From assembly GCA_002163135.1 (NCBI GenBank), contig MAAN01000012.1, positions 62,001 through 126,000 of the forward strand: DNA of 64,000 nucleotides, in the 5' to 3' direction. The first letter of the stretch is position 1. Each line of letters begins with the position of its first letter. Below, in pieces: positions 18,006-57,078 of this stretch. The notes beneath the pieces are model-generated. The model ran no database searches, was not told the origin of the DNA, and saw nothing but the letters and a program-made list of their open reading frames with translations. This DNA comes from Alphaproteobacteria bacterium 46_93_T64 (lineage in GTDB: Bacteria > Pseudomonadota > Alphaproteobacteria > Sneathiellales > Sneathiellaceae). Position numbers and translations under genes: made by a program.

Positions 18006-20012
18006 ATGAGGTTAGGATTAAAATCTAAGATCTCCCTTTTTGCGTCAGGGCTGGTTTTTTTGATTGGCGTTGGACTTTTTTCAATAACATATTATTTGGA
18101 AATCACCTCGAAGCGTGCATTGCAATACGAACAGATTTCAAGCGTGGTATCCCGTATTAATGCGTTGGTAGAGACACCATTGTTTATGTTTGATGTAAGG
18201 AGAATTCGAGATGTCGTTTCGATAATCGCGCAAAGTGGTGAGTTCGATACAGTTTGGGTTCTTGACCCTGCGGGCAGAATAATTACGGATGGAAGTAAAG
18301 AAAACCCTTTGCGTAATCAAAAACCAAACTCTCCCATTGTTACCAAATTAATGTCGCTGGGCGCTGCTGCGCAAGAGGTCGATTCAGACCATGTTTGGTT
18401 TGGTACTTCAGTGAAAGGCACCAATTCGGAAATTCTGGGATACGTGGTTGTTGGAATAAGTTCCAAAAAAATAAATGAGCCATTGAATGACGCAATCCAA
18501 ATTCAATTATTTGTACTGATCCCAGCACTTTTATTCAGTGTTTTAGCCGCCAATTTTTTCGCACGCCGCATTATTCGGCCATTGAGTAAATTGACCGAAA
18601 TAGCAAATCAGATTGGCAAAGGAAACTTGGATAAGCGTAATGTACACCTCTCTAACGATGAAATTGGTGACTTATCGGCTTCGATCAATTTAATGGCCGA
18701 AAATCTCTCAGAGATAACAATTTCACGTGATGATATCCAAAAGCGTGCCGATGAAGATGCTAAACTACGAGAGGTGGCAGAATCTGCAACTGTAGCAAAA
18801 TCGAATTTCCTTGCCACTATGAGCCATGAAATACGAACCCCGTTAAATGGGGTGTTGGGGCTCGCCCAACTGTTAAAAGATACCAATCTTGATCACGAGC
18901 AAGTGGCAAAAGTGAATACAATTCTTTCTTCTGGTCAAACCCTACTTGCAATAATCAACGACGTTTTAGATATGAGTAAAATTGAGGCAGGAGCATTGCA
19001 ACTTGAGGAAAGAGCTTTTTCATTGGGCGACTTGATCTCAACAATCGTTTCCCCCTTTCAGGCTTTGGCCGATGACAAAGGGTTGGAGTTAGTCGTGACT
19101 AGTAATGTACCGTCTGACCACATTATTGTGGGAGATCCTGTTCGGCTACGTCAGATCTTATGGAACTTACTTAGCAATGCCATCAAATTTACTAGTGAAG
19201 GTAATATCATTGTAGAGGTTCAGATAGTTGACCAAACCATGGAAATCGGAAAAATATTACCTGAACAAAAAGACCAATTAATTTACTTCACAGTTGAAGA
19301 TTCAGGTGCCGGTATTTCATCTGATCGACTGAATATTGTGTTTGATCCCTTTACTCAAGAGGACACCACAATCACCCGTAAACATGGCGGTACTGGCTTA
19401 GGTCTATCTATCGTCAAACAACTAATCGAATTGATGGGCGGAACAATCGACGCGAAAAGCGAGATTGATGTAGGAAGTACTTTTATTGTCTACCTACCTT
19501 TCTCTGAACCAACAAATGAAGAAATTGAATTTGTATCAATGCGCCGTGAGGACACTCCAACCCAAAAAACCAAACCATTGAAGGTTCTTCTCGCTGAGGA
19601 TAACGAAGTAAACGCTATGATCGCAAAATCATTTTTGAAGAAGCTTGGCCACGAAGTGAAACATGTGGCAAACGGTAAGCTGGCGGTCGATGCTGCAAGT
19701 GAAGTCTGGGCGGATTTAATTTTGATGGACATTCATATGCCAGAGATGAACGGAATTGAGGCAACGAAATTAATTCGGAAATCGGAGTATGGAATAAACA
19801 TCCCTATCATCGGCTTGACGGCTGAAGCCTTTGCAGAACGTCATGTTCTGTTTCTCGAAGCAGGTATGAACGCTGTTCTCACCAAACCCTTCACGGAGCA
19901 GCAACTTACCGATATACTTGCCGCTAACAGACTAGTTGAAAGGCGTCACGTCGACCGCGAAGAAGCTCAATTTTCTGAACTTCCTGTGTTGCAGAATGCC
20001 CACAAAGAGTAG
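18006..20012 (+). CDS. hybrid sensor histidine kinase / response regulator
   Basis: An inner-membrane sensor kinase of 668 residues. A first helix (about 10-32) and a second (about 162-182) bracket a periplasmic sensor of about 130 residues ([27 protein letters not shown]). HAMP (about 183-235), a short coiled coil, HisKA with His274 in [16 protein letters not shown], and HATPase with N and G boxes ([35 protein letters not shown]) follow. A C-terminal receiver (about 522-640) has the acidic pair EDN and Asp575 in [13 protein letters not shown]. It is cotranscribed with the PhnD-like protein, which probably docks on the periplasmic domain. No output regulator lies beside it, so the downstream partner is unknown. 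Confidence 0.93.
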
Positions 20013-33963: not shown

Positions 33964-34413
33964 ATGGAAGAAACTGATCAGAAAAATCAAATATCTGAAA
34001 CTACATATAGAGTTGAAGATCAAATCGGTTTCCTGTTAAGAAAAGCACATCAACGGGCGAGTGCCCTCTTTCAAAGCCAGTTTTCGGAATATCAGACAAC
34101 ACCCACTCAATTTTCAACTCTATGTAAGTTGAAAGATGAGGGAGAGATTTCGCAAAACCACCTCGGGCGATTGACCGCTATGGATCCTGCAACAATCCAA
34201 GGTGTTACTCGAAGGCTAATCGATCGCGGATTGGTGCAGACGCGACCAGATGACAAGGATCGTCGTCGGATGCTGTTACGCTTGACAGACGAAGGCCAAG
34301 GGGTCATTGACAGTTTGATATTAAAAGGTAAATCTGTAACAAAAAAGACGCTTTCTCCTCTGTCACAAGAAGAGCAGCTAAAACTAATTGAGTTGTTGAA
34401 TAAGATTTCGTGA
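33964..34413 (+). CDS. MarR-family transcriptional regulator
   Basis: A 149-residue winged-helix regulator. The helix-turn-helix is in FSTLCKLKDEGEISQNHLG and ATIQGVTRRLIDRGLV, and the wing in RPDDKDRRRMLLRLTDEGQ, the standard MarR pattern. Members bind DNA as dimers and release it on binding phenolic or other small ligands or on oxidation; there is no Cys in the conserved redox positions I could see. It lies 16 bases before the receiver gene, and three genes in a row here share close spacing, so it may regulate its own short operon. Confidence 0.92.
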   Translation: MEETDQKNQISETTYRVEDQIGFLLRKAHQRASALFQSQFSEYQTTPTQFSTLCKLKDEGEISQNHLGRLTAMDPATIQGVTRRLIDRGLVQTRPDDKDRRRMLLRLTDEGQGVIDSLILKGKSVTKKTLSPLSQEEQLKLIELLNKIS

Positions 34414-34428: not shown

Positions 34429-34980
34429 ATGGCTGACTTAGATCTATCAGGTTTTACAGTACTAGTAGTGGATGATAACCCCTATATGGTGTCGCTGATA
34501 AGCTCCACTCTGTTAGGTCTTGGGGTTGGCAAAGTTAAAAAATTCTCTGACGCAAAACAAGCCATCGAATTTATAAAATTGGTCGCTGAAAATCCTGTGA
34601 AAGCAGGAGTCATGCAGCTTGACTTTATAGTGTCGAATTGGCAAATGGCCCCCATTGATGGGCTAATGTTTTTGCGCTGGGTCCGGACCCATAAAGAAAG
34701 CGAAAGCCGGTTTATTCCTTTTTTGATGGTAACTGGTTTTGGTGACAAATCAAAAGTGGAAGAGGCGCGAGATCTTGGGGTGAGTGAGGTTTTGGCCAAG
34801 CCGTTTTCGGTGAATTCAGTTGCGGATAAATTAATGCAAGTCATTGGGACTAGTAGGCAGTATGTCCAAAACGCTAGGTATTTTGGGCCAGATAGAAGGC
34901 GCCAGAACCTTCCCTATAAAGGTGCGGAACAGCGCATACTCACTGAAAAAGATCCTGAAGTAAAAGTAATCTACGAATAG
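34429..34980 (+). CDS. CheY-like receiver protein with Asn at the phospho-acceptor site
   Basis: A 183-residue stand-alone receiver. The fold is clear: VLVVDDNPYMVSLI with the acidic pair Asp15-Asp16, FLMVTGF with the conserved Thr, and VLAKPFSVNS with the conserved Lys. The expected acceptor in the strand-3 loop is replaced: the loop reads DFIVSNWQMAPIDG, with Asn70 where family members have Asp. It should not be phosphorylated in the usual way. A C-terminal tail with YFGPDRRRQ follows; that GPDRRR pattern recurs in alphaproteobacterial receiver proteins. GAGGG precedes the ATG. Ten bases separate it from the HPt-like gene, suggesting a functional pair. Confidence 0.9.
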   Translation: MADLDLSGFTVLVVDDNPYMVSLISSTLLGLGVGKVKKFSDAKQAIEFIKLVAENPVKAGVMQLDFIVSNWQMAPIDGLMFLRWVRTHKESESRFIPFLMVTGFGDKSKVEEARDLGVSEVLAKPFSVNSVADKLMQVIGTSRQYVQNARYFGPDRRRQNLPYKGAEQRILTEKDPEVKVIYE

Positions 34981-34989
34981 GAGAGCAAC

Positions 34990-35490
34990 ATGAATAAGCC
35001 AAAAATTTCTGTCCGCCTCTATCGTATGAGAAATCGATTGATGGAAAAAGCCGGCGGCATCGGAGCAACTGCTGCAACAAGTGCTTTTCCAAAGCATATG
35101 CTGGAAGAAACAGAAGAGCTCTTTCAGGAAATGATTTCGGACTATCCAGATTGGGTGCAGGAAACTCTGAATAAATTAACCGCCTTGGTTGAAGTGTGCG
35201 TTAATTTCGAGGAAAAGCGGATTGTGAGCTATAAAACCATCCAAGAGATTGCCCATGAAATGAAAGGGCAGGGCGGGACTTTCGGCTATCCGCTTGTTTC
35301 GACATTTGGCGACAGCCTGTATGATTTTACAGGCCCGAATGCAGGTCTGTCTGACAATCATGTTAAAATCATAAAGGCCCATGTAGACGCTATGAAAGCA
35401 ACGATTAATGGCCGGATACAAGGGGATGGCGGCCAAATCGGTACTGAATTGAAAACAATGCTCGCTGCAGCGATCAAGCAGTTTCAATAA
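34990..35490 (+). CDS. HPt-like (histidine phosphotransfer) protein
   Basis: A 166-residue, mostly helical cytosolic protein. The stretch IAHEMKGQGGTFGYP around His89 matches the HPt phospho-acceptor helix (AH.LKG..G.FG), so His89 is the likely phosphate carrier. The N-terminal 35 residues are basic (RLYRMRNRLMEK) and the region up to about 75 is helical. The overall family is not one I can name. It directly follows the Asn-receiver gene and has its own TAGGAG ribosome site. A strong hairpin terminator lies about 110 bases after the stop, ending the marR-receiver-HPt group before the large RHS gene. Confidence 0.8.
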   Translation: MNKPKISVRLYRMRNRLMEKAGGIGATAATSAFPKHMLEETEELFQEMISDYPDWVQETLNKLTALVEVCVNFEEKRIVSYKTIQEIAHEMKGQGGTFGYPLVSTFGDSLYDFTGPNAGLSDNHVKIIKAHVDAMKATINGRIQGDGGQIGTELKTMLAAAIKQFQ

Positions 35491-35638: not shown

Positions 35639-35664
35639 GCCAATTCAGCAGAGAGGCTTTGCGG

Positions 35665-38600
35665 ATGTCCAGTTCGTTTACGTGTACCCGTTTCTCAATA
35701 GCAGTCATTACTTTACTGTTTCTATTCTACACCACGTCCATTTCCCATTCTAGAAATGCGCCCTATAAAAATGGCGATATAATTGATGTGGATAGAGGAC
35801 AAATATCAACGGGCGAGGTTCTTAAAAAGGACTTTCTGCCGTTGGATAATGTGTCTTTGTTTACAGACGCTAGTTTTCGAAACGCCAAAATTTTGTCTCG
35901 CGTAGAGGCACCGTTTTATTTGAATGTTGATAGGTTTCAGGCGCAAGCCTATATCAATTATCCAATAACGGTTGCGCCCGGCACAAACGGGTTTACTCCT
36001 GAAATTAGATTGAAAATTTCCAATGTCAAAAACGGCTCTTCGCTAACGGATGAACTTGTTGCCGGCGACGTAATTGCTAGTTGCAGCGGACTAAGCGGTC
36101 TATGCCTTGGCGAAGATCAATTGGTTGAAGTGGAGGTTTCCGGGAGCGACCGCACATACACTCTGAAAACAGATCCCAGAGTAAATATTACCAAAACACC
36201 TATTGGCTTTGTGCTGATCAACGGCGAAGGTCTGAAGCAGTTTTATGAGACAATTACAGCCGATGATGGAAGCCGTATTCATAGGCTTAGGTTCAGCATA
36301 GATTGGTTCGAAAACCATATATTCTATGAATATGATCTTGATACCGGGGCATTGTCAACGATCCGCTATGGTCAGGACAAAGTGTTATTTTCTCATCAAA
36401 GAACAATCCATTTTCGTTATGGGAATGAAAAACCGGGGCTTTTGACGCAAATTGAAAGTCGCATTAGTGGTCGTGTTGTCCGTGTGTATCAAATCGGGCG
36501 GAACCAGAAAAATCAGGTAATCACTCTACAAGAATGTGCGCCACAAACCGAAGGGACTTTGAAATTGTCCTGCTTCTCTCCGACTAGATTTGGGTGGATA
36601 GCGGATAACTCTGGCGGTGAAGCGATATTAAGAAGTGTCCAGAACGGCAAAGGAGCAGAAACAGTTGTTCAATACACGCTATCAAACAATGATCCAGTTC
36701 TGAAGACACTTATCTTGTATGAAGATGGCAAAAAGGTGGGTCAGACGGATTATGCGTTTTCTCAGCCGATTATAGATAACGGGGCCATAGTTGGATATTC
36801 GAAATCTTGGTCTCAAGCAACCGGACAACCAATTGGTGAGTATAAGCAGTATGGACAAGGAATATTGTCTGGAATGCTTGTCGCGGAGGGAATGTTCCAA
36901 AACGATGCTCATGAGGAGCTGCGTGCCACGGATTATCCATTGATATCGAAATCTGAGTATGTGCGAGGTGGAAAAGACGCAGACGGTGCAGAACTTCCTG
37001 TGTTTCTTAATCGAAAAATCCAGACCGTATTCGGCGAAAATGGAATAGTTCAAACGCAATCCGAAACAACTTATCGGTATGATAACAGAAACCGTATTAA
37101 GCGAATTGTTACGCCTGAGAGCAAGGAAGTATTCACGTATCTTGGTGAGAAGAATGCCGATCATTTTGATAAAGATACCGGAAATCTCGTCGTGGATAAG
37201 TCGATCTTTAACTTGAAACTTGGTAAGTTAAGTCAACGCCGTGTTTGGGAATACAGTTTTAGTGGATCTCGTCTTACAGGTTCCAAATCAAGAATTGAAA
37301 AAAATGGCGAAATTCTGGATGACCTCACAACGAAACAGCTGTTGGATGAACATGGAAATATTGTTGAAACTGTAACACGGGATAAGAAAACTAAATTTGG
37401 GTTTGACCCATTATACAAAACCTACCCAGTGAATGCCGAAGTCGTTGTCGTCGGGCAAAAAAGCTCCATCGACTGGCAATATGATGCAGCTTCAGGCAAG
37501 CAGGTCATGGAGAAATTTGAAGATGGATCACAGGTATGGACAGAGTTGAACGAGCTCGGACAGACTACCGATGTAACGACGATATTAACGGACCCTAAAA
37601 AAGCTTCCAGTGGTGAACCTTCTGGCGATGTCGAGACTAAAGAAGCGACCCGTATAACAGACCTAGGTGATGGTCGCATTCGCATGACAAAAGTGATCGA
37701 GAAAGCTGCCGTTCACACAAATAATGCTGAAGTACTAAAATTTGTAACTGTTACTGATGGGCTAGGGCGTGTCGTCAATATTAACGGAGAAGCGCGGGAT
37801 AAGCACGGCGTGTTGCTTCGTGAGAGTTCACTCGAAAACGAGTATACATCAATCGGGCAGACAACAACTGTCATTGACGAAACCGGTCGGGTTCAAAAAA
37901 CCAGGTTTGATCAGCTGGGCAGAGTTGTTTCTGAAGAAACCGAAGGTTATGGAGCAACTGAGTTTCTGTACAATGCTGACAATCTAGTCTCCCAGATTAT
38001 TCGCAATGGCAAAACAATCGGACTTGCATATGATGAGCGGGCCCGTCTTGTTAGCAAGAAGTTACCAGACGGGTTTGAATATTCATATGAATATGATGTG
38101 AGACATCCCACAAAAGTAAGCCGGACTGTTCTCCCCTCAAAAAAAGTTATTGAATATACATTTACCGATGAAGGCAAACCTTCTGAAAAACGCGTCATAA
38201 TTCCGGATGTTATCGGCGACGACGTTGAGTTCGTTACTTCATTTGAATATCAAAACGGTCAGCTTTCCAAGGTTACATATCCGGATACTTCGGAGGTGTA
38301 TTATCAATATGAGGGCTCCCGCCTCGAAAATATTCGGTGGGGCAACAATCCGCCAAAAGAGTGGAAGAGTGCAAATATTCCTATTGCTTCCTATCAATCT
38401 GACTTCCTGAAGTCTGGAGATGCTGTTCTTGTAAAGGAATTGGGCAATGGTATCTTAGAGAAGTACCGGTGGACTAAAAACGGAAATCTGCACTCTATTG
38501 ACTTTGAACGCAATGGAAATGTTGCGGAAAACAATGGGTCAATTGCCAGTCTTTTTTATGAGTTTACAGAAGATGCAAATTTATTAAAAAATGAAACGAG

Positions 38601-41196
38601 AAAAGATGCCTTAAGAAATGGTATCCACACATCGGAAACTCGATATCTCTACGATGAAAATGGGAGGTTGGTAGAAAGCACCGATAGTCATAATAACAAT
38701 GCTGTTGCTGCAACAAATTTTTCAATCCTTAATAGACAGTTAGATAGTGTGGACGAAAAAATTCAGCTGCATCGGGTTCCTGTAGAGCTGACGTTTGACC
38801 AAAACGCAAATATCACTGGTATGAAAACCCGCGACCGTGACGTGACATTTGATTTTGACGTAGAAAATCACCTTCTTGCCAGTTCCGTTCGTACGGATCG
38901 TTCAACTCGGAACTTCACTTACGAGTATGATCATACGGGGCAGCGTATCGAAAAAGATGAATTGGATGGTGCTGTTACCTACTATATCGACGAATTCTAT
39001 GAAATTACGGTGCTTCCTGACGGAACGATGCAACAAACACGATATGTGTGGGATCATATGGGGCGGATCGCCGCCTTTACAGATCGAGTTACTGACGAAG
39101 ATTTAGAAATATTTGCTACGGTTGTTCCCACTGCTATCAGCGATGAGACTGGAGGTGGAGTTGCTGCAGGTTTGAAATATGTTTCGACGGCTTCCGCTCA
39201 AATCTCGAAATTTCTGTCTCCAGTTACTGGCCATGCCCTCTTGCCGTTGTTGATTTTTTTTGGGATTGCATTGACCTTGATCTCAGTATTTGAGCGAGCT
39301 ACAGGTTCAGCAAGAATGACAATCGTTGCACGTCCGGATTTTGTGTTAGGTAGGATCAGAAGAGTATCTCTGGCGTTAGTGACGTTTGTTTTTACGACGA
39401 TGATTATTACACCAAGTGTGCACGCTGCACTTGAAGGGGGCGATGGATCTCCGAAAGTTGATCAAGTTACATTTTATCATCACGATATTCGTGGGAGCGT
39501 TATTGCAGTATCAGGTGAAGATGGACAGCAGAGTGCGTCAGTAGGTTATACTCCTTATGGTGCGATGTCGGATGACCAGTTGTCGGCCGGAAATAATAAC
39601 TTTCGATTTAAATTTGCTGGTATGGAGTTTGATGAAGAAACCCAGTTATACTACGATATAGCACGTTACTATTCCCCAGAGCTGGGACGTTTTTTAAGCC
39701 CTGATCCGGCTAGAAGTACAAAAAACCCCTATGCGTATACGAACGGTGATCCTGTAAATTACATTGATCCCGATGGACGGATGATGTTGCCGGTTCATAT
39801 GGCAGCAATGCATCGAGCCGTGGTCACACAACCTTCACGCCAAACCGTTCCCACGACTGATGTAGAAGCTCAAGTTGATAATGATGGGGGTTCCTGGTTC
39901 CGCTATCCATCTTTCTGGAACTGGACGTTTAAAAAATCCCATGATTTTGTGACTTCTGGCGAAGATGAAGAGGGAGCCGCGAGACCTGCCGCTGATCCAA
40001 CAGATGAGGACCGTGCCGCATATGACAGGCTTGCGAGAAGTGATTATATGCAAAGCTATACGCGAATGGGAGGTTACCTTCAGAGTGTCTTTGGTGCCGC
40101 TCTGTTAGCTTGGTTAGCACCAACTTCCTATCAGTATGAAGATGGGAGTGAAATATCAGCGGGTTTTGGCGTGGATCTTGCCGTTTATTTTTTAACTGTT
40201 ACTGCGTTCTCAGCTTACGGAAAAGGATATACGGCCAATGAAAGCGAATATTGGAATGGTATAAAAGCGAGAAGCGCAAATGGGGCTGACTACGTCCGCT
40301 TAGCTGCTCGACGGATGCTATGGAAAGTCGGCGTTCAAATAACCGCCTTCACAGGAATAAAATTGCTTGCTTCCGTCGCAAGTGGGTATCCGCTATTTGA
40401 GGGTGCCACATCTACAGACGCGGTTTTGAGCTCTCTTGGTTTGTTGGTTGCTCGGTATTTGGTTTATAGCATTGGAGGCAATTCAGCGCTTCTTCCTTAC
40501 TATCTAATGACAAAAGAGCCGAAGGGCGGGTATGACGATACAATGACGGCAGAGAAGCTCAATGCAATGCCGTGGTGGAAGAGGTGGGTCGTTAAAGCTT
40601 CTATTTGGTATCGCGGTTACACATCAAGGAAGGGATTTTGGGCCGAAAAAAGTGAAGCCGGTACGTTGAAACGATATAGACAAAACCTTTGGTACCCTTC
40701 TTATGTCTTGCAGATGTATGGATTATATATGTTGAGCTCGCTGGGGTATTACGGTGGATTGGCAAGTATAATGCCGGCAATCCCGAGCTTGAATGAAGAT
40801 GTGTTTTTCAGCGCATGGCGAAGTAACTTGATTTTGATTATCCTTGCACCCGCTGCAAGTCCATTGGCAGCTCTAAATTATTGGAGAAAATCTTTTACAA
40901 TCGTCAAGAAAAGGGCTGCAAATAATCCTAGAACCAGTGGTTTGTGGTTCCGGCTTTTAGGGCCAATTGAAGGACTGCGGCTCGCAAAATATGACGACAG
41001 AGCCTATTTGCCGGACGATACTTGGATGCAAATTCTCCGCGAAAACAGCGGATCTGCAGTAGCGGATCTGGAAATGCAATCACAAGAAGAGGATTTATCA
41101 GACGATGGTGGAGAGCCTCTCGGAAACTCCAGTCAAGAAATTGAGGAAGGAAAAGAGGCGGGGCAAGTGGATCCGAGATCGATAGTTTCTGAATAA
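35665..41196 (+). CDS. large RHS/YD-repeat protein with internal and C-terminal membrane segments
   Basis: A 1843-residue secreted RHS protein. The ATG is chosen for its spacing from AGAGAGG. A Sec-type signal peptide (about 1-30) is followed by a beta-rich N-terminal region and many degenerate YD repeats (about 480-1130, e.g. RYLYDENGRLVESTD). The RHS core is interrupted after YVWDHMGRIAAF (near 1126) by about 140 residues with two hydrophobic helices (near 1190-1210 and 1234-1254) flanking a basic loop; it resumes at FYHHDIRGSVIAV (near 1270) and ends in RYYSPELGRFLSPDPA (1334) and NYIDPDGR (1372). The last 470 residues, where RHS proteins carry variable effectors, hold about six hydrophobic segments (1470-1740) and an acidic tail. 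No nuclease, deaminase or ADP-ribosyltransferase motif was recognised. Two hairpins follow. Confidence 0.9.
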   Translation: MSSSFTCTRFSIAVITLLFLFYTTSISHSRNAPYKNGDIIDVDRGQISTGEVLKKDFLPLDNVSLFTDASFRNAKILSRVEAPFYLNVDRFQAQAYINYPITVAPGTNGFTPEIRLKISNVKNGSSLTDELVAGDVIASCSGLSGLCLGEDQLVEVEVSGSDRTYTLKTDPRVNITKTPIGFVLINGEGLKQFYETITADDGSRIHRLRFSIDWFENHIFYEYDLDTGALSTIRYGQDKVLFSHQRTIHFRYGNEKPGLLTQIESRISGRVVRVYQIGRNQKNQVITLQECAPQTEGTLKLSCFSPTRFGWIADNSGGEAILRSVQNGKGAETVVQYTLSNNDPVLKTLILYEDGKKVGQTDYAFSQPIIDNGAIVGYSKSWSQATGQPIGEYKQYGQGILSGMLVAEGMFQNDAHEELRATDYPLISKSEYVRGGKDADGAELPVFLNRKIQTVFGENGIVQTQSETTYRYDNRNRIKRIVTPESKEVFTYLGEKNADHFDKDTGNLVVDKSIFNLKLGKLSQRRVWEYSFSGSRLTGSKSRIEKNGEILDDLTTKQLLDEHGNIVETVTRDKKTKFGFDPLYKTYPVNAEVVVVGQKSSIDWQYDAASGKQVMEKFEDGSQVWTELNELGQTTDVTTILTDPKKASSGEPSGDVETKEATRITDLGDGRIRMTKVIEKAAVHTNNAEVLKFVTVTDGLGRVVNINGEARDKHGVLLRESSLENEYTSIGQTTTVIDETGRVQKTRFDQLGRVVSEETEGYGATEFLYNADNLVSQIIRNGKTIGLAYDERARLVSKKLPDGFEYSYEYDVRHPTKVSRTVLPSKKVIEYTFTDEGKPSEKRVIIPDVIGDDVEFVTSFEYQNGQLSKVTYPDTSEVYYQYEGSRLENIRWGNNPPKEWKSANIPIASYQSDFLKSGDAVLVKELGNGILEKYRWTKNGNLHSIDFERNGNVAENNGSIASLFYEFTEDANLLKNETRKDALRNGIHTSETRYLYDENGRLVESTDSHNNNAVAATNFSILNRQLDSVDEKIQLHRVPVELTFDQNANITGMKTRDRDVTFDFDVENHLLASSVRTDRSTRNFTYEYDHTGQRIEKDELDGAVTYYIDEFYEITVLPDGTMQQTRYVWDHMGRIAAFTDRVTDEDLEIFATVVPTAISDETGGGVAAGLKYVSTASAQISKFLSPVTGHALLPLLIFFGIALTLISVFERATGSARMTIVARPDFVLGRIRRVSLALVTFVFTTMIITPSVHAALEGGDGSPKVDQVTFYHHDIRGSVIAVSGEDGQQSASVGYTPYGAMSDDQLSAGNNNFRFKFAGMEFDEETQLYYDIARYYSPELGRFLSPDPARSTKNPYAYTNGDPVNYIDPDGRMMLPVHMAAMHRAVVTQPSRQTVPTTDVEAQVDNDGGSWFRYPSFWNWTFKKSHDFVTSGEDEEGAARPAADPTDEDRAAYDRLARSDYMQSYTRMGGYLQSVFGAALLAWLAPTSYQYEDGSEISAGFGVDLAVYFLTVTAFSAYGKGYTANESEYWNGIKARSANGADYVRLAARRMLWKVGVQITAFTGIKLLASVASGYPLFEGATSTDAVLSSLGLLVARYLVYSIGGNSALLPYYLMTKEPKGGYDDTMTAEKLNAMPWWKRWVVKASIWYRGYTSRKGFWAEKSEAGTLKRYRQNLWYPSYVLQMYGLYMLSSLGYYGGLASIMPAIPSLNEDVFFSAWRSNLILIILAPAASPLAALNYWRKSFTIVKKRAANNPRTSGLWFRLLGPIEGLRLAKYDDRAYLPDDTWMQILRENSGSAVADLEMQSQEEDLSDDGGEPLGNSSQEIEEGKEAGQVDPRSIVSE

Positions 41197-41280: not shown

Positions 41281-41341
41281 TATGACTGTCAGCAGTCCAC
41301 TCATCCTGTATAAACGATCATAGAACGGGAGATTGCTAGAA

Positions 41342-41890
41342 ATGCATGATTTTTTTGAACGTATTCTTATTGGTCGATCAACGCGACAGACCTTATCAAA
41401 ATATGCAAAAGGCATTGACCGATGGCTCGGTGTGGTAACGTTGATATCAGCCGCACTTTTGGGGACTGCGATTGCGATGCCGTTAGGGGCTTCCGATGAT
41501 TTCCTAGGGCTTGAAGGGTCGCTTTCTTTATTTCTCAGTTTAGTCGCATTAGTTAAAACTGGGGAAGGCACATTTGCATTAGCAGGCAGTGCGCTCTTTA
41601 TAGCCTTACCAATTTATAATATCTCTACTGCGTTTGATATTTGGTACAAACATGAAATCCATGGCGAAAAATTTGATAAATATGTAACTCGAGTGGGTGC
41701 ATGTGGCCGACTGTGGTTTCTGTTGGCGATTGGCTCAGTAGGGCTGATCTATCTTATCCAGACAAGTGAGAACGGGACAGTTTATTTGCCGGTATATTAT
41801 TTGCTATTGAGTATCATGTTGCAGAAGCTTGTTTTAACGCGTCTTGGGCGCTTAACTTCCGCCGTTAGATTTGTAGATGAAATAGAGTGA
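41342..41890 (+). CDS. small PqiA-like four-helix membrane protein
   Basis: A 182-residue inner-membrane protein with about four to five helices (WLGVVTLISAALLGTAIAM; LSLFLSLVALVKTGEGTFA and on to FIALPIYNISTAF; LWFLLAIGSVGLIYLI; VYYLLLSIMLQKLVL). The stretch with GEGTFALAGSALFIALPIYN, followed by GRLWFLLAI, resembles one half of a PqiA domain, a family linked to lipid trafficking across the envelope. It follows the RHS gene in the same direction at 145 bases, in the place where immunity genes usually lie, but two terminators intervene. PqiA-like or immunity function cannot be decided here. Its TGA takes part in an inverted repeat shared with the convergent gene. Confidence 0.75.
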   Translation: MHDFFERILIGRSTRQTLSKYAKGIDRWLGVVTLISAALLGTAIAMPLGASDDFLGLEGSLSLFLSLVALVKTGEGTFALAGSALFIALPIYNISTAFDIWYKHEIHGEKFDKYVTRVGACGRLWFLLAIGSVGLIYLIQTSENGTVYLPVYYLLLSIMLQKLVLTRLGRLTSAVRFVDEIE

Positions 41891-55188: not shown

Positions 55189-57078
55189 TTACACTTTTGT
55201 CACTTGAGTATCCGCCATCAAAGCGATTTTTAACTGCAATGCGAGTTCCCTTCGCTGGAAGGGTTTTGTTAGTAGGATATCATTCGGATCCCAGCTGTTA
55301 GATTTTTGGGTTGTTGCCGCGGCCTCAGTGGGATAGCCGGACATATAAATGATTTTTTGGGTGGAGATTATATCCTTATTTTCCTTGAAAAATTCAGGAC
55401 CGCTCATACCTCCAGGGAGCACCACATCAGATAATATCAAATCTATTTTTTGGTTTGATTTCAATACTTGAAGCGCTGTTTCTGTGTCATTTGTGGGAAC
55501 AACGTTATAGTTCAAGGATGTCAGTATTTTCCCTGCAAGTATGAGGACGTCTTTGTCGTCCTCCAGGACAAGAATAGTCTCGCCATTCCCTTGTGGGATA
55601 TCAGACGAAGATAAATGAGAGAGTGGGCTTTCATGACTTTCCAGCGCCCTCGGTAAATAAATCATGATTGAGGTCCCAAGACCTTCTTCACTATAGAGAT
55701 CAATATGCCCTCCTGATTGCTTCACGAAGCCATAAACCATGGAAAGCCCTAGTCCAGACCCTTTGCCGACGTCTTTTGTTGTAAAAAACGGCTCAAACGC
55801 GTGCTCCATAGTGTCTTTTGACATGCCAGTTCCAGTGTCTGAAACACAAAGAAGTACGTAATCACCTGCAACCGCATCAGTTAGATGTATTGCATCCGTT
55901 TCTTCTAAAATGAAATTACTTATGTCGATGCTAAGTTGCCCACCATTCGGCATCGCATGACGCGCATTTACGGCAAGATTTAGAACTGCATTTTCCACTT
56001 GGGCGGCATCTGCAAGTGCTGTCCAAATGTTCTCTTCCGCGTTAATTTTTACACTGATTGTTTCGCCCAACGAACGATCGAGAAGATCCGTTATGCTTTC
56101 TACGAGTGAAAGTAAATTAAGGGATTCTGGGCGAAGAGGCTGCTTGCGGGAAAATGCCAGTAGCCTTTGCGTTAGATCGCTACCGCGAGCGGTTGCTTTG
56201 ATAATTGGCTTAATGAGGCGGACATTTTCTTCTTTTACTAGAGTTTCCAGTAATTCCGCATTTCCCTGTATAATGGCCAGCAGGTTATTAAAATCATGGG
56301 CAATGCCACCAGTAAGTTGACCTACCATCTCCATTTTTTGGGATTGCACCAGTTTTGCTTCCAGCTTTTCTCTTTCCTGAATTTCATCTTTTAAAATCTG
56401 GTTGGTTTTCCGTAAGTCCAGAGTGCTTTCTAAAATCCGTTCCTCCAAATGTTGTGTCAGACTATTAAGCGATTTACGCTCCCGCCAGAGAATTGCAGCC
56501 ACTAGAAATCCCGTCACAAGTATACTTGGAAGTAGAATACGCGCCCAATAGCCCACAATTTTCAATTCGGTGTGAAGTCGCGTGCTATCAATTGTGGCTT
56601 TTCTCGCGGCGGCGATAGTGATCTGATGAAGAGACGGAACTAGATCCCGATATCGTTTTGCCAATTGAGCTAGAGTATTGGTGTCTTTTCTTTTTAGGGA
56701 TAGAACCGCTTCCTCTGTTTCAATAAGTGTAATATGGAATTGATTGAGAAATTCAGGAGCCTTTGGAAGTTGTTTGAAGGCAGCGCCGACTTTTCCTAAA
56801 GTGTTTGTTTTTCTGCGGCTCCAAAGTATATCGTACCGAGTAATAAGTTGTTGCTTGCTAATGCTGGAATTGCTGAGTTTGTATTGGTTAAGTGAGTAAA
56901 TAAACTGGTGCAACTCATAGCTTGTTTGAGAGGCAACACCAATTAGTATATCACGTGCTACGCTTTCCAATTTGGTAGATTCCTGTACGACACCACTTAT
57001 TAGCCAATAAGCCGATGCCGTCATGGAGAATGTTGCAATGATTAATACTGCGTAGAGATATCTAATATTACGAAACAT
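55189..57078 (-). CDS. hybrid sensor histidine kinase / response regulator
   Basis: A 629-residue inner-membrane kinase. Helix 1 (about 7-27) and helix 2 (about 178-198) enclose a helical periplasmic domain of about 150 residues. A coiled coil leads to HisKA with His261 in LTGGIAHDFNNLLAI, HATPase (VLNLAVNARHAMPNGG, VSDTGTGMS, GLGLSMVYGFVKQSGG) and a C-terminal receiver (about 500-620) with the acidic pair LEDDKD and Asp551 in LILSDVVLPGG. The GGIAHDFNNLL box marks the group of kinases with a C-terminal receiver. It follows a small periplasmic protein gene by 23 bases, in the same order as the PhnD-like/kinase pair at 17-20 kb. Confidence 0.93.
   Translation of the reverse strand: MFRNIRYLYAVLIIATFSMTASAYWLISGVVQESTKLESVARDILIGVASQTSYELHQFIYSLNQYKLSNSSISKQQLITRYDILWSRRKTNTLGKVGAAFKQLPKAPEFLNQFHITLIETEEAVLSLKRKDTNTLAQLAKRYRDLVPSLHQITIAAARKATIDSTRLHTELKIVGYWARILLPSILVTGFLVAAILWRERKSLNSLTQHLEERILESTLDLRKTNQILKDEIQEREKLEAKLVQSQKMEMVGQLTGGIAHDFNNLLAIIQGNAELLETLVKEENVRLIKPIIKATARGSDLTQRLLAFSRKQPLRPESLNLLSLVESITDLLDRSLGETISVKINAEENIWTALADAAQVENAVLNLAVNARHAMPNGGQLSIDISNFILEETDAIHLTDAVAGDYVLLCVSDTGTGMSKDTMEHAFEPFFTTKDVGKGSGLGLSMVYGFVKQSGGHIDLYSEEGLGTSIMIYLPRALESHESPLSHLSSSDIPQGNGETILVLEDDKDVLILAGKILTSLNYNVVPTNDTETALQVLKSNQKIDLILSDVVLPGGMSGPEFFKENKDIISTQKIIYMSGYPTEAAATTQKSNSWDPNDILLTKPFQRRELALQLKIALMADTQVTKV

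Follow-up and report, generated by a model that had tools for sequence, protein, structure and literature searches.

A conserved asparagine-type pseudo-receiver with a Cle-like Arg-rich C-terminus and its linked Hpt protein in Alphaproteobacteria

Within the stretch of 64,000 nucleotides that was analysed (the window), we identified a gene for a 183-residue receiver protein (34429..34980, forward strand), assigned by the match of its residues 11–133 to Pfam Response_reg (E 7.6e-16) and by its orthologues and their tree. The pocket residues D15, D16, T102 and K124 are in place and the phospho-acceptor position is occupied by an asparagine (N70, codon AAT at 34636..34638, forward strand), as the initial annotation had read them. 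Where a canonical response regulator has its acceptor aspartate, 37 of the 38 sequences of the clade, the window receiver among them, have asparagine, and a receiver of this composition belongs to the Aspartate-less pseudo-receivers as these are defined in PMC12632262. The receiver domain is followed by an Arg-rich region (residues 143–169; 34855..34935, forward strand), and the protein ends in a conserved VKVIYE motif (34960..34977, forward strand) that recurs in the linker of fused relatives; the one model that makes it a strand is of low confidence. A ribosome-binding-like AGGAG (34979..34983, forward strand) overlaps the receiver stop codon, and the gene for a 166-residue Hpt-like protein (34990..35490, forward strand) starts nine bases past that stop.

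Directly upstream of the receiver lies a gene for a MarR-family regulator (33964..34413, forward strand; Pfam MarR E 3.9e-11). The order His-phosphatase, MarR, receiver, Hpt recurs in the Asn-type regions of Sneathiella that were read (L114–L117, L119 and L023; L021 is the locus of L117), which makes the MarR gene a possible operon partner and regulation of the pair by the MarR protein possible in this genus. The search gave no MarR match next to the receiver in L118 and L124–L133. In L124, L125 and L127, outside Sneathiella, oxoacid:ferredoxin oxidoreductase genes lie upstream; considered as a functional clue, they were taken instead as old gene order. On the other side of the pair, the window encodes an 1845-residue YD/RHS-like protein (35659–41196), named from its repeats by reading, and then a gene with no Pfam match (41333–41890). 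Among the Sneathiella relatives, a diverged large gene is found 3' of the Hpt gene in L116 and L119, and a relative of the small gene in L114, L117 and L022. The window also carries the two hybrid kinases that had been annotated (18006–20012, forward strand, and 55189–57078, reverse strand).

The downstream protein was named Hpt from its HxxKG motif together with weak family matches. The motif histidine already annotated, H89 (codon CAT at 35254..35256, forward strand), lies inside IAHEMKGQGG (H89-E-M-K-G). The Pfam Hpt match of the window protein (E 0.0013, 19.4 bits) falls below the gathering cut-off of 24.6 bits; three relatives gave E values of 5e-5 to 2e-4, also below the cut-off, and the relatives scanned reach 23.8 bits at most. 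The model of this protein is a helical bundle (pLDDT 63) whose similarity to 1tqg (Z 12.3) and 3kyj (Z 11.2) is tied with that to unrelated designed bundles and is below the value of about 13 set by the tool for helical bundles; no Foldseek match was obtained with the model at E 0.001 or better. Its N-terminal element VRLYRMRNRLMEK (35011..35049, forward strand) is conserved and also occurs between the Arg-rich region and the Hpt part of fused relatives. The 4.0 Mb genome around the locus contains eight further Hpt matches. In Sneathiella glossodoripedis (L021, 3562–4055; the locus of L057), the Hpt frame breaks after about residue 109, beyond the histidine, which suggests a sequencing error or a pseudogene.

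Residues 143–169 of the receiver (RQYVQNARYFGPDRRRQNLPYKGAEQR) resemble the Arg-rich region of the Caulobacter Cle proteins, which is reported to bind c-di-GMP (Nesper et al. 2017, PMC5677366). This segment contains R143, a first repeat that agrees exactly with the Cle-type pattern (YFGPDRR, residues 151–157) and a degenerate second repeat (YKGAEQR, residues 163–169). A search of PDB sequences with the tail gave a single match at E up to 10, namely CleD (PDB 6sft, E 0.0056), and a profile of ten tail sequences returned the same single match at E 4e-6. According to the same paper, R156 of CleD matters, R169 does so less strongly, and an arginine of helix alpha4 (R113 in CleD) contributes in both CleA and CleD (PMC5677366). 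The window counterparts are R156, R169 and R114 (34768..34770, forward strand), the last being one number on from R113. R114, R143, F152, P154, D155, R156, R157 and R169 are invariant in all 38 sequences of the clade, and the first repeat persists in each of the 84 Asn- and Asp-type rows of our alignment, with Glu in place of its Gly once. Acidic residues follow the Arg-rich region at varying places. A search with the CleD peptide also gave three CleD-like proteins in other genomes (L143–L145); aligned with the receiver, they have Glu where it has Asn70, and Arg where it has R114, R143, R156, R157 and R169. Signalling by c-di-GMP is plausible in the host because its genome contains 20 GGDEF matches. 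We consider it very likely that the window receiver, judged by its sequence, binds c-di-GMP.

Two more degenerate receivers with Arg-rich-like tails (YCGPERR and YIGPNRH, then PNSLKAK or PNALRMK) are encoded in the same genome: L016 (1429–2370, forward strand; near G000:C7:33749) and L003 (1030–1995, reverse strand; near G000:C6:36679). Both have a Pfam receiver match and no Hpt match, with a weak FliH match in L003, and they may be paralogues of this module that have decayed.

Relatives of the receiver were searched for at E 1e-12 or better, and the matches include Asp-type relatives. A match was found in 173 of the 385 genomes sampled from the class Alphaproteobacteria, where at most eight candidates were scored per genome, and in 22 of the 25 genomes of the order to which the window belongs. 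These 25 genomes (loci L001, L028–L030 and L057–L074) comprise nine with the full Asn type, one with just a fragment, at the end of a contig, 12 with the Asp or Glu type only and three with no match at this threshold. A set of 97 receiver rows was assembled from the best loci of the searches and 20 fetched regions; as its rows were chosen for likeness to the window, the proportions of Asn and Asp among them are not prevalences. With the window added, 11 of the 98 rows were dropped before tree building: L001 (the window again), L021, L023 and L024 (Asn-type copies of L057, L059 and L035), L002, L003, L004, L016 and two rows of L025 (weak matches outside the family), and L082 (Asn-type with a broken tail). 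L043 was retained despite an apparently frame-shifted tail past the first repeat.

The acceptor position of the 87 aligned receivers is occupied by Asn in 37, Asp in 47, Glu in two and Ala in one. In a tree calculated without column 70, the Asn and Asp rows form the two sides of one branch, with moderate support (76/79) and open forks around it; this split falls on one branch in 72% of 200 bootstrap trees, and none of 500 shuffles gave a value as low. The Asn rows and L031, which has Ala, make up the clade of 38, spanning several families at a mean identity of 55% (minimum 33%). Trp71 is present in all 38 sequences, and position 69 of the 37 Asn-type rows is Ser in 31 and Ala in six. The asparagine codon in the 36 Asn relatives is AAC in 25 and AAT, as in the window, in 11. 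Among the relatives read, all those more than 52% identical to the window carry Asn, and L031, at 51%, carries Ala. Since Asn is found in 37 of 38 sequences at this divergence and both codons are in use, Asn70 is, on this comparison, a selected residue and not a slip; a recent mutation or sequencing error, the alternative to which the initial annotation had drawn attention, is ruled out on these grounds. We also considered whether the Asn and Asp types are alleles of a single Sneathiella locus and rejected this, as none of the other six window neighbour genes that were looked for turned up in L120–L123, the four of 12 Asp- or Glu-type regions that were read. One genome (G423) encodes an Asn-type split pair (L084) and a fused Asp-type protein (L090) together. 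A search of a plasmid collection gave one match, from Niveispirillum, without an annotated feature.

The receiver is linked to the Hpt gene across the family. Using an Hpt profile built from the Hpt rows of the receiver-linked family itself, we found a match in the next gene downstream for 64 of the 97 rows, upstream for one and in the same open frame for 23; of the nine rows with no match, six match the receiver weakly and lie outside the family. Each of the 37 Asn rows in the tree has a downstream match (a fragment in L089, one cut by the contig end in L053). The 23 fused proteins, single polypeptides composed of receiver, Arg-rich region and Hpt, make up one clade; an open fork places it beside the Asn groups. 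Their acceptor residue is Asp in every case, and more distant split pairs can have Asp as well. On either side of their linker, the fused proteins carry two elements that resemble protein ends in most split Asn pairs: the C-terminus of the receiver ([DE][IV]E[IV][IV][YH]) and the N-terminus of the Hpt (V+x[YF]...N+LxxK). Because this neighbouring clade carries the three modules as one protein, we think it probable from such comparisons that the receiver and Hpt of the window are physical partners. A model of the joined pair (pTM 0.43) was too poor to show an interface, and none was taken from it. Read-through of the receiver stop in frame into the Hpt gene was considered as well; the receiver and Hpt genes are in one frame in the window and in several relatives from Sneathiella, and in different frames in others, L022, L029 and L060 among them, so that read-through is no conserved device. 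Scans of three fused proteins in Pfam gave E 0.056, E 0.0076 and no match for the Hpt part. In L100, L102 and L107, which are fused and keep the Asp, the Hpt histidine is replaced by Leu.

The Hpt position corresponding to H89 is His in 34 of the 37 Asn-type rows and Asn in one (L061), and has no letter in L089, where most of the Hpt is gone and only its C-terminal part is left, and in L053, where the contig ends before the histidine. The DD pair, T/S and K of the receiver pocket are intact in 34 of the 37, and all 34 have the Hpt histidine; the exceptions are the same three loci. A Fisher test of pocket against histidine gave 0.0016 on the 36 readable rows and 0.0045 with L031, which has a broken pocket and keeps the Hpt histidine; as the test was post hoc and the rows are related, these values are descriptive. 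The association rests on two losses, one of which (L089) could be an assembly fault, and it fails in the Asp group, where seven of 45 partners are without the histidine although the receiver pocket is intact. These Asp-group receivers may have other phosphate donors. On the tree, the His state requires at least six changes and the Asp state three. Phosphate transfer inside the pair thus seems dispensable, in contrast to the first Arg-rich repeat with its retention in all Asn- and Asp-type rows. The retention of the histidine in the Asn clade indicates that the Hpt probably exchanges phosphate with other receivers, as the initial annotation had suggested.

The explanation that we favour for the whole, and to which we give about an even chance, is that the protein is a c-di-GMP-operated pseudo-receiver of the Cle kind that docks on phospho-Hpt. 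A c-di-GMP dimer would be bound by the C-terminal Arg-rich peptide and Arg114 of helix alpha4, and the conformation of the receiver would be set by this ligand, not by phosphorylation at residue 70. The receiver would hold the adjacent Hpt like the two halves of the fused proteins, and the Hpt, through its kept histidine, would exchange phosphate with other receivers, for instance those of the hybrid kinases. With its metal- and phosphate-coordinating residues kept, the Asn receiver could dock on phospho-Hpt without taking the phosphate, perhaps trapping it; c-di-GMP would decide the docking and hence the amount of phosphate flow. Both the direction and the outcome of such gating are predicted. 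This explanation draws on CleD as the sole PDB match, the invariant arginines, the Asn/Asp split on one branch, the 23 fused proteins, the Hpt linkage, the retained pocket and histidine, and the GGDEF and Hpt counts of the genome; it is weakened by the degenerate second repeat, by the post hoc pocket–histidine association that fails in the Asp group and by the moderate branch support. Control of a phosphate relay through the pair by c-di-GMP is probable. That gating proceeds by docking on phospho-Hpt is a proposition we hold with somewhat less than even confidence. More tentative is the suggestion of a natural substrate trap, in which Asp has become Asn, the metal, Thr/Ser and Lys contacts are kept, and a c-di-GMP-controlled receiver holds phospho-Hpt without discharging it; if true, a second messenger would directly control a phosphorelay at the Hpt step. 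The initial annotation thus captured the pseudo-receiver, the linked Hpt and a probable action by binding; it overlooked the Cle-type C-terminus with its likely c-di-GMP input, and the Asp-bearing clade in which the three modules are one polypeptide.

The Cle likeness could also be read as that of a c-di-GMP effector acting on the flagellar switch protein FliM, like CleA and CleD, with the Hpt belonging to an unrelated relay and merely co-expressed. The Arg-rich region and alpha4 Arg are the same as in the Cle proteins, and the FliM N-terminus encoded in this genome (LNQDEIDSLL) resembles the CheY-binding motif LSQxEIDxLL given in PMC5677366. Such an effector would leave the family-wide Hpt linkage and the clade of 23 fused proteins unexplained, and no Hpt match was found in the open frames of L143–L145, the three loci nearest to CleD, compared with such matches for six of the ten other loci found with the CleD peptide; we regard this explanation as unlikely. 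A similarly low probability attaches to the receiver doing no more than localising the Hpt or serving as its scaffold, in dependence on c-di-GMP, with no part for the Asn pocket in contacting the phospho-His. L061 and L031 would fit this role, since much of their pocket is lost and both the Arg-rich region and the Hpt gene next door remain, but the DD, T/S and K residues are mostly intact in the other Asn receivers (34 of 37), whereas in pseudo-receivers generally about 80% are non-acidic at the second D of DD, in a set partly defined by such losses, according to PMC12632262.

Phosphorylation might instead persist at another residue, such as Ser69 beside Asn70. In CheY D57N, phosphorylation is reportedly found on Ser56, and the 31 Asn-type rows with Ser69, along with the otherwise intact pocket in 34 of 37, would allow for something similar. 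With Ala at position 69 in six of 37 rows, and with CleA and CleD functioning independently of the acceptor (PMC5677366), we hold this to be very improbable. L061, L089 and L053 suggest decay within the clade; as an account of the window receiver itself, a decaying relic or sequencing error is scarcely credible, being contradicted by the conservation of Asn in 37 of 38 sequences at a mean identity of 55% (minimum 33%) with both codons used.

A search of the titles and abstract openings of open-licence papers found none that joined Arg-rich c-di-GMP receivers with Hpt proteins; the components described here, a Cle-type Arg-rich region, a pseudo-receiver and an Hpt, are known ones in a combination not found in that literature. 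For the meeting of c-di-GMP and phosphorelay signalling, the clade provides a case that is directly testable: its pseudo-receiver has a predicted ligand and a predicted partner, and fused relatives that carry Asp are at hand for comparison. As in the pseudo-receiver of Caulobacter ShkA, described in PMC7010744 and PMC12632262 and a precedent for c-di-GMP-controlled action on a histidine domain, a c-di-GMP-binding pseudo-receiver would control phosphate flow. The ShkA domain, however, is part of a hybrid kinase, whose HisKA domain is its target, whereas the window receiver is a protein of its own encoded next to an Hpt and is predicted to bind c-di-GMP by way of an Arg-rich tail added to it. 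The fused proteins of other Alphaproteobacteria share with the window pair the three modules, their order and the linker elements, and differ from it in being one polypeptide, in the Asp acceptor (23 of 23) and in an Hpt part with a low Pfam score or none. Closest to the receiver itself are the Cle proteins of Caulobacter crescentus (CleA–CleE; PMC5677366), which are likewise single receivers with an alpha4 Arg and a C-terminal Arg-rich region of the same pattern. CleA and CleD are described as functioning without their acceptor residue (D67 in CleA, E70 in CleD), and the domain survey published for the Arg-rich region names other extra domains and not Hpt (PMC5677366). In contrast to the Glu at the acceptor position of CleD, the window receiver has Asn with the rest of the pocket kept, and unlike the CleD-like L143–L145, with no Hpt match in their open frames, it is accompanied by an Hpt partner gene. 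If the proposed mechanism holds, the Cle idea would extend from the flagellar motor to Hpt proteins.
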